DNA of 32,416 bases, from NCBI GenBank assembly GCA_016875015.1, contig VGSJ01000028.1, forward strand, positions 1 to 32,416, given 5' to 3'. A model generated the notes under the pieces. That model was not told the DNA's origin. It saw nothing but the letters and a program-made list of their open reading frames with translations, and searched no databases. The position numbers and the translations under genes were made by a program. Shown piece after piece: positions 15,731-22,030 of the stretch. Numbering within the stretch: the first letter of the stretch is position 1; the number at the start of each line of letters is the position of its first letter. This DNA is from Deltaproteobacteria bacterium (GTDB lineage Bacteria > Desulfobacterota > Desulfobaccia > Desulfobaccales > 0-14-0-80-60-11).

Positions 15731-15819
15731 TTTACCCCCCTTTTTTAAAGGGGGGCAGGGGGGATTATATAACCATCTGATAATCCCCCTGAATCCCCCT
15801 TTAGTAAAGGGGGACTTTA
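15731..15819. repeat. palindromic intergenic repeat, uninterrupted copy
   Basis: tttaccccccttttttaaaggggggcaggggggatt...taatccccctgaatccccctttagtaaagggggacttt; interrupted copy at 21193-21559. Confidence 0.8.
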
Positions 15820-15847: not shown

Positions 15848-15949
15848 ATACCGTGTTCCCTTTGAAATGAAACAAACCATCCAGATAACCTATTAATATC
15901 TCTCGTAGGGGCGGGTTTCAAACCCGCCCCTACAAAACAAACACGGTAT
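15848..15949. mobile_element. MITE-like element, 102 bp, TIR ATACCGTGTT
   Basis: ATACCGTGTTC-N8-ATGAAACAAAC aligns with the reverse complement of the right end of 13335-13436; carries perfect hairpin gtaggggcgggttt-c-aaacccgcccctac (15905-15933). Confidence 0.6.
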
Positions 15950-20506: not shown

Positions 20507-20627
20507 TTTGGTGGCACAGGCTTCCAGCCTGTGCAGGCGCAGGCTAAAGCCTGCGGCTACAGAAAATAACCTTTTGAGTGCAACTCAGTATAAGGGGAAA
20601 TAAGGGGAAGAAAACGCTAGACCGGAT

Positions 20628-20726: not shown

Positions 20727-21107
20727 ATGATTTACGGCATCGGCGTGGACCTGGTGAAGGTGCCCCGGATCGAGCGGGTTCTGGCGCGCTACGGCGACCG
20801 CTTTTGCGCCCGCGTCTTCACCGAACGCGAGATCGCCTACTGCCGGGGCAAGTCCTGGGCCGCGGCGGGCTTCGCCATGCGCTTCGCGGCCAAGGAGGCC
20901 TTCTCCAAGGCCCTGGGGGTGGGTCTGCGTCAAGGCGGCATCCGCTGGCGGGAGGTGGAGGTGATCCCCAACCCCCTGGGCAAGCCCGAAATTTTCATAA
21001 CCGGCCGGGCGGCGCAACTCTGCGCCGAGGCCGGCATCACCGGCATGCACCTCACCCTCACCGACGAAGACGGCCGGGCTTTGGCCGTGGTGATTTTGGA
21101 GAAGTGA
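20727..21107 (+). CDS. acpS: holo-[acyl-carrier-protein] synthase
   Basis: MIYGIGVDLVKVPRIERVLARYG...FTEREIAYC...FAAKEAFSKALGVG...LTLTDEDGRALAVVILEK. Confidence 0.95.
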   Translation: MIYGIGVDLVKVPRIERVLARYGDRFCARVFTEREIAYCRGKSWAAAGFAMRFAAKEAFSKALGVGLRQGGIRWREVEVIPNPLGKPEIFITGRAAQLCAEAGITGMHLTLTDEDGRALAVVILEK

Positions 21108-21192
21108 GGTGATTATGATAACGGCCCTGTTTCTCCTGGCCCTGCGCAACCGCCTGGGCCGCCGGCGTTGAGGCAATCAGGCAAGGCATTTG

Positions 21193-21559
21193 TTACCCCC
21201 CTTTTCTAAAGGGGGGCAGGGGGATTTTATATATAGCGTTTGCCAAAAGTTCTTTCCCATTGATGGTTTTTAAATCCCCCTAAATCCAATACGGTTCACT
21301 TAAGGTTTGGCTATTTCGATGGTTTGCTGGGGCGAGGATGCCCCCCCTCACCCCAGCCCTCTCCCCCCGCCGGGGGGAGAGGGAGAATTACCGGATATCC
21401 TTCTTTATTCCCTCTCCCCCAATGGGGGAGAGGGTTAGGGTGAGGGGGAATTAATCACTTTCTCCCTGTCGTTGATAAATGCGTTCCCGGATTTTTTGAA
21501 AGCTCGGGTGCTAAGTGAACAGCATTGCCCCTAAATCCCCCTTTTTCAAAGGGGGACTT
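21193..21559. repeat. palindromic intergenic repeat interrupted by an insertion
   Basis: Same family as 15731-15819, split at cccctaaatc. Confidence 0.8.
21287..21527. mobile_element. MITE-like element, 241 bp, with 10-bp target site duplication
   Basis: Termini CAATACGGTTCACTTA / TAAGTGAACAGCATTG; flanked by cccctaaatc at 21277-21286 and 21528-21537. Confidence 0.75.
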
Positions 21560-21700
21560 GGTTGTCCGAAATTTTAAGTTTCAGTAATGCAGGGCGGGCC
21601 TTGCCCGCCAGATAAGGTGGCCAGGGCGCACACACAAGCTGCGCCTGCACCGGCGAGACGCCTATGCCACCTGTTTGATGGGGACTTGAGTGTTGGTGAG

Positions 21701-22030
21701 ATGACCGATAACCCCGAAACCAGACTTATCGTCTACGGCAGCCTGGCCCCGGGCGGGGCCAACGCCTTCCTGCTGGCGGGCCTCGTGGGGGAGTGGTACA
21801 AGTGCCATATCCGGGGCTACCTGGGCGCCTATCGGGGCTTCAAATCCTTCCGCTATGACCCCCAGGGGCCGGAACACCCGGCCTGGCTCCTAAAATCCGA
21901 TGAACTCCCTCGGGTGATCTCCGAGTTGGACGACTTCGAGGGGGAGGAATACGCGCGCCGCGTCATCCCCGCCCAGGTAAATAACCGCTGGGTCATGGCC
22001 CAGGTCTACGAAGGCAGGTATGTGGATTAA
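21701..22030 (+). CDS. gamma-glutamylcyclotransferase-like protein
   Basis: RLIVYGSLAPGGANAFLLAGL...ISELDDFEGEEYARRVIPAQ...AQVYEGRYVD; GGCT fold motifs YGSL and LDxFEG. Confidence 0.85.
   Translation: MTDNPETRLIVYGSLAPGGANAFLLAGLVGEWYKCHIRGYLGAYRGFKSFRYDPQGPEHPAWLLKSDELPRVISELDDFEGEEYARRVIPAQVNNRWVMAQVYEGRYVD

Follow-up and report, generated by a model that had tools for sequence, protein, structure and literature searches.

How did a 241-bp segment come to split a palindromic repeat, and was its place of landing determined by chance or by preference? The locus lies in the window, the whole stretch of 32,416 nucleotides analysed here, which is contig C28 of a 3.1-Mb genome in 148 contigs (G000). 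The Lon protein encoded in the window is 92-95% identical to those of CG07_land_8_20_14_0_80_60_11 (a MAG named Deltaproteobacteria bacterium), E21_metabat.bin.24 and, over a partial gene, Syntrophobacterales bacterium DeMMO3_32, and the window's genome is thus a close relative of these MAGs. A preliminary description had proposed that a MITE-like element was inserted into the palindrome with duplication of a 10-bp target; an orthologous empty site, dozens more insertions and a transposase-encoding partner now support this. The segment is very probably a non-autonomous MITE that was put into the sequence CCCCTAAATC of a hairpin by an IS4-subgroup-like transposase with a preference for such targets.

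The features of the locus, together with the uninterrupted paralogue of the host hairpin elsewhere in the window, are as follows.

15782..15817, + strand: uninterrupted paralogue of the host hairpin
21194..21227 (about), unstranded: CCCCCCTTTTCTAAAGGGGGGCAGGGGGATTT, the first of the hairpins in the composite host repeat; conserved in G002, the sister species
21232..21276, unstranded: fragment from the end of a separate MITE-like element, TATAGCGTTTGCCAAAAGTTCTTTCCCATTGATGGTTTTTAAATC, resembling L045 and L080
21277..21286, unstranded: target-site duplication, copy 1, CCCCTAAATC
21287..21527, + strand: 241-bp MITE of the CAATRCKGTTCACTTA family
21287..21302, + strand: left terminal inverted repeat, CAATACGGTTCACTTA
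21340..21455, unstranded: twin-hairpin core, CCCTCACCCCAGCCCTCTCCC ... GGGAGAGGGTTAGGGTGAGGGG, present in related genomes without these ends
21512..21527, - strand: right terminal inverted repeat, CAATGCTGTTCACTTA as read on the - strand
21528..21537, unstranded: target-site duplication, copy 2, CCCCTAAATC
21533..21559, unstranded: host hairpin, AAATCCCCCTTTTTCAAAGGGGGACTT, split by the insertion

The element is in a non-coding interval flanked by a gene for an ACPS-type phosphopantetheinyl transferase (20727-21107) and a GGACT-like gene (ORF 21587-22030). Downstream of the former is a possible short reading frame (21115-21171, with the end ..ALFLLALRNRLGRRR*), which is conserved in G002 and G003. 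The 10-bp duplication is perfect and its sequence occurs at no other site in the window; the coordinates first given for its two copies and for the segment between them proved exact. The terminal inverted repeats, CAATACGGTTCACTTA / TAAGTGAACAGCATTG, are imperfect as had been claimed, being complementary at 14 of 16 positions, and the inner repeat type that had been noticed in the segment corresponds to the twin-hairpin core. The element has a folding energy of -120.5 kcal/mol (z = -6.6 against shuffled sequences). It holds no open reading frame of 100 or more amino acids and no transposase gene, and a search of Rfam returned nothing at the element, the sole match being to a tRNA elsewhere. 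Like bacterial MITEs in general, it is shorter than 500 bp, is devoid of a transposase gene, is bounded by terminal inverted repeats and a target duplication, and is present in multiple dispersed copies.

Removal of the element and one duplicate restores the hairpin repeat, and the uninterrupted copy that the preliminary description had placed at 15781-15818 is found intact at 15782-15817. A comparison with empty sites in relatives, which had been suggested as a check, is provided by G002, a sister species in the same genus. Its orthologous spacer, AAAATCCACCTAAATCCCCCTTTAAGAAAGGGGGACTTGG, contains the host hairpin with a single target copy, CACCTAAATC, and the MITE is absent. In G003 the orthologous spacer is without hairpins entirely.

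The nesting of repeats at this locus had been described as three levels deep. Nesting is indeed seen; the count was too low, as it omitted the extra hairpin at 21194-21227 and the MITE end fragment at 21232-21276. The latter, a piece of 40-odd bp directly to the left of the target, is present in the window and missing from the orthologous site in G002, and it is similar to an end of a separate MITE-like element (see L045 and L080). The host hairpin is itself found inside another MITE-like element, between TATAGCGTTTGCCAAAAGTT-type ends (L045, L080), and in the relatives G005 and G001 the twin-hairpin core is bracketed by unrelated CTTAGTACAGTGGTTTCATAAATACGGTAACGT-like inverted repeats of 34-36 bp (L083, L094). 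From these arrangements, cores and ends look exchangeable between elements. REP/BIME repeats, a class to which the host hairpin may be compared, are palindromes tagged GTAG or CGTC and accompanied by a REP-associated tyrosine transposase (RAYT). Two further repeats were seen in the window. One, TACCGTGTT...AACACGGTA at 15849-15949, is a MITE-like element of another kind that carries a GTAGGGGCGGG palindrome; a further copy of it, at L031, interrupts an IS4-type MITE at an apparent TA target. The other, GTGGCACAGGCTTCCAGCCTGTGCAGGCGCAGGCTAAAGCCTGCGGCTAC at 20510-20595, is also dispersed and recurs many times in each of the four genomes of the genus.

When the element was searched against its own genome, 75 matches were found at E <= 0.001, the element's self-similar hairpins included. 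A search with the 16-bp end, as had been recommended, gave 76 matches (40+36) against 3 (2+1) for a reversed control pattern. The genome thus holds dozens of copies, among which are 17 complete elements with these ends, 150-258 bp in length. Seven are of 240-242 bp and carry the twin-hairpin core, and there is one 190-bp version. Six others (150-155 bp) have a GTCATTCTGAG core and two (156-157 bp) a GGGCGGGC core. The longest, at 258 bp, is of the 150 type and is broken up by a second element, TACCGTGTT...AACACGGTA. The shorter elements, with ends as in the 241-bp MITE and other cores, occupy the identical target. Duplications agreeing at 9 or 10 of 10 bases flank 14 of the 17, the chance of two given 10-mers agreeing at 9 or more positions being 3.7e-5 at this base composition; the other three, which are without matching duplications, are best read as products of later recombination between copies. 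Many more copies are cut off at contig ends, as is to be expected because near-identical repeats break assembly. At L037 (G000:C99:10513-10788) a 151-bp and a 241-type element stand in tandem with one copy of the duplication common to both, as if an already duplicated target had been used a second time.

A full-length relative with a transposase, which the preliminary description had advised looking for, was found as an insertion sequence (IS) of 1457 bp. Fragments of this coding element, with its two ends, lie at contig ends of G000, and a complete copy is present in G011:C219 (L061), with CCCCTAAATC on both sides and inside the same type of hairpin as the MITE. Its ends, CAATACTGTTCACTTA / TAACTGAACAGTATTG (second end CAATACTGTTCAGTTA), are near-identical to those of the MITE, CAATACGGTTCACTTA / CAATGCTGTTCACTTA, and the MITE thus shares its ends with an autonomous element present in its own genome, as bacterial MITEs do. 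The complete IS was read only from the contig binned with G011, in G000 the ends alone being assembled. Over 1500 bp that contig matches the start of contig C10 of G000, and over 159 bp the end of C3, in each case with 100% identity, and so bridges the two. It is probably DNA of the window's own population, and possibly a contig misassigned to the G011 bin (6% contamination) or else shared DNA. The contig-end fragments with both IS ends and the bridging contig rule out that the autonomous IS has been lost from the window's genome. The 1827-bp contig C148, which has a near-match to the end, was also considered as an autonomous element and was rejected, as on inspection its only long ORF does not encode a transposase. 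The sequence common to MITE and IS is limited to the terminal 16 bp, and thus the MITE is not a simple internal deletion of the IS.

The IS4 subgroup comprises elements of 1400-1650 bp with a single-ORF transposase and duplications of 10-13 bp, some members being strikingly target-specific (De Palmenaer et al. 2008, PMC2266710). The partner IS resembles them in its length, in its 10-bp duplication and in its ends, CAATACTGTTCACTTA agreeing with the pattern -AATR--------WTW (PMC2266710, Table 1). Its protein matches the IS4 N-terminal domain (Nterm_IS4, PF13006, 8.5e-25) and the DDE domain (DDE_Tnp_1, PF01609, 1.7e-11), and a Y(2)R(3)E(6)K (YREK) motif can be read in the translation as YHERREIETALDELK. 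Unlike members of the subgroup, it does not have its transposase in a single ORF, a C-terminal stretch being in the +1 frame, and it is for this reason termed IS4-subgroup-like.

This change of frame is the most surprising side result of the analysis. In six lineages (G011, G027, G028, G048, G286 and the acidobacterial record L186), the transposase reading frame is left at a run of C, and the conserved C-terminus, corresponding to the last 60-odd codons, follows in the +1 frame. The loci are L061 (G011:C219), L079, L216, L070, L248 and L186, and the sites at the C run are CCCCCC-AGG, CCCCCC-TGA, CCCCCC-TCA and CCCCC-TGT; in G048, seven matches of identical score all have TGA. The +1-frame tail is conserved as protein, with dN/dS at about 0.1 to 0.4 in comparisons that allow dS to be measured, and is under purifying selection. 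Such a conserved, apparent frame change would fit either slippage during transcription or programmed +1 frameshifting. Among DDE_Tnp_1 transposases, changes of frame are known, mostly at A-rich sites (PMC3711429), and a small literature search found no report of one at a C run in IS4-type elements.

The preliminary description had treated the insertion as a single event; instead, the family as a whole has a preferred target. Among 74 element ends, 46 (about 60%) adjoin exact CCCCTAAATC or its complement. The 10-mer has about 104 occurrences in the genome, and of 100 exact sites listed, 44 adjoin an element end and 56 are free. Because contig breaks may split one insertion, the 44 sites correspond to about 22 to 37 occupied places, from which the occupied share of all exact places is estimated at roughly 28 to 40%. 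By a strict test, 18 of 21 occupied hairpin-side ends lie within the hairpin; the remaining three comprise two variant hairpins and one end adjoining a second element. The same ends also occur in cyanobacteria, acidobacteria, planctomycetes and other deltaproteobacteria, with 10-bp duplications at sites centred on YTAR or YATR. The central preference thus belongs to the transposition machinery, and CCCCTAAATC is what the repeats of this genome offer. The 19-bp end CAATACGGTTCACTTAAGG, among the matches listed, is found in Nostoc and relatives, acidobacteria, planctomycetes and deltaproteobacteria, and many of these matches are MITEs of 91-257 bp with 10-bp duplications.

It could be supposed that the hairpin and the 241-bp segment belong to a single large repeat and spread together, the duplication being part of it. 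Many copies of the segment do lie within one type of hairpin, and host repeats elsewhere do literally contain it, an observation that the preliminary description had named in advance as grounds for abandoning an insertion. The insertion nevertheless stands, because the element occurs in both orientations (13 ends against 11), the host hairpins of the copies differ in their outer flanks, and different elements (of 150-157 bp, 190 bp and 258 bp, and the IS) are found at the same 10 bp, all of which point to recurrent insertion. With the orthologous site empty in G002 and other insertions lying outside the hairpin with other duplications (CCCTTAGCCC, GGGTTAGGGC), an inherited composite is most improbable.

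Recurrent insertion leaves the question of what directs the element to the hairpin. The general preference for YTAR/YATR is weak. Under this general profile about 2% of the 10-mers in the window score as high as CCCCTAAATC, and thus the focus on CCCCTAAATC needs an extra factor, be it the sequence of the arms, the context of the hairpin or the survival of insertions in non-coding DNA. The transposase might recognise an extruded or cruciform hairpin rather than the 10-bp sequence, as nearly all of the occupied exact sites checked are in the hairpin, compared with 15 of 20 sampled free sites within the CCCCTTT-N-AAAGGGG hairpin. This is nonetheless unlikely, as the cut is at a constant position beside the loop and never in it, insertions outside hairpins lie at similar 10-mers with a central TA (CCCTTAGCCC, GGGTTAGGGC, GATTTAAACC), and in cyanobacteria and others the same ends lie in YTAR/YATR sites without this hairpin. 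Alternatively, insertion might be near-random at YTAR sites, with hairpins appearing preferred solely as harmless non-coding places where insertions survive. The weakness of the general preference accords with this, as do the 5 of 20 sampled free exact sites that lie outside a repeat context, yet survivorship by itself is quite unlikely given that about 60% of ends are at a 10-mer matched in score by so many others. Survival of insertions in non-coding DNA could still account for part of the hairpin preference.

The reading preferred here, recurrent transposition of a MITE into a favoured target, may be set out as follows. An IS4-subgroup-like transposase would cut the MITE at its 16-bp ends and insert it where CCCCTAAATC had been opened with a 10-bp stagger, whereby those 10 bp would be duplicated. 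The source of the transposase is probably the 1457-bp IS of this genome, which has the ends and the target preference of the MITE and would thus mobilise it in trans. The preferred target would be 10 bp long and fit NNNY-TA-RNNN, its outer arms being rich in G/C. Many near-ideal targets of this kind are offered in non-coding DNA by AAATCCCCCTAAATCCCCCTTT-N-AAAGGGGG, the dispersed hairpin, so that insertions accumulate there, and the preference for the hairpin is probably explained by sequence fit together with this safe location.

Insertion of IS4-family elements into extragenic palindromes, and the attraction of insertion sequences to MITE palindromes, are already known. ISRm22, of the IS4 family, is inserted in REP palindromes of Sinorhizobium meliloti, and in the part of that report consulted (Tobes and Pareja 2006, PMC1525189) it is likewise an IS4-family element in dispersed extragenic palindromes, with palindromic sites and G/C pairs at the ends of the duplication. 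It differs in belonging to subgroup IS4Sa and in its host and palindrome, and the same part of the report describes no MITE family dependent on it. In Coxiella, IS1111 lands in a palindrome within QMITE2, nested repeats again serving as landing sites; in contrast to the system described here, its transposase is of an unrelated type that recognises a GTAG REP, and it is the IS that enters the MITE rather than MITEs that enter the palindrome (PMC10969869). Chunjie of Geobacter uraniireducens and Nezha of cyanobacteria are, by description, bacterial MITEs of similar size, and the Geobacter host of Chunjie is likewise a deltaproteobacterium (PMC10969869). What is new is a further and richly documented case, in which a MITE family has repeatedly landed in dispersed hairpins.

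A broader possibility, put forward tentatively and somewhat doubtful, is that hairpins are exchangeable MITE modules, serving both as landing site and as cargo, with a partner transposase made by programmed +1 frameshifting at CCC-AGG / CCC-TGA. If so, unrelated pairs of ends would acquire identical hairpin cores, and carriage of a core would give other elements fresh landing sites, such that the repeats promote each other's spread.

The locus shows cleanly, in a natural setting, how transposition has recurred into a single class of dispersed palindrome, and the target, the empty site, the duplications, the dependent MITE subfamilies and the probable transposase have all been identified. It carries the caution that such repeats break metagenome assemblies, and that bacterial hairpin repeats may be mosaics built up by layered insertions. 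It also presents an IS4-like system in which experiment could separate sequence-directed from structure-directed targeting.
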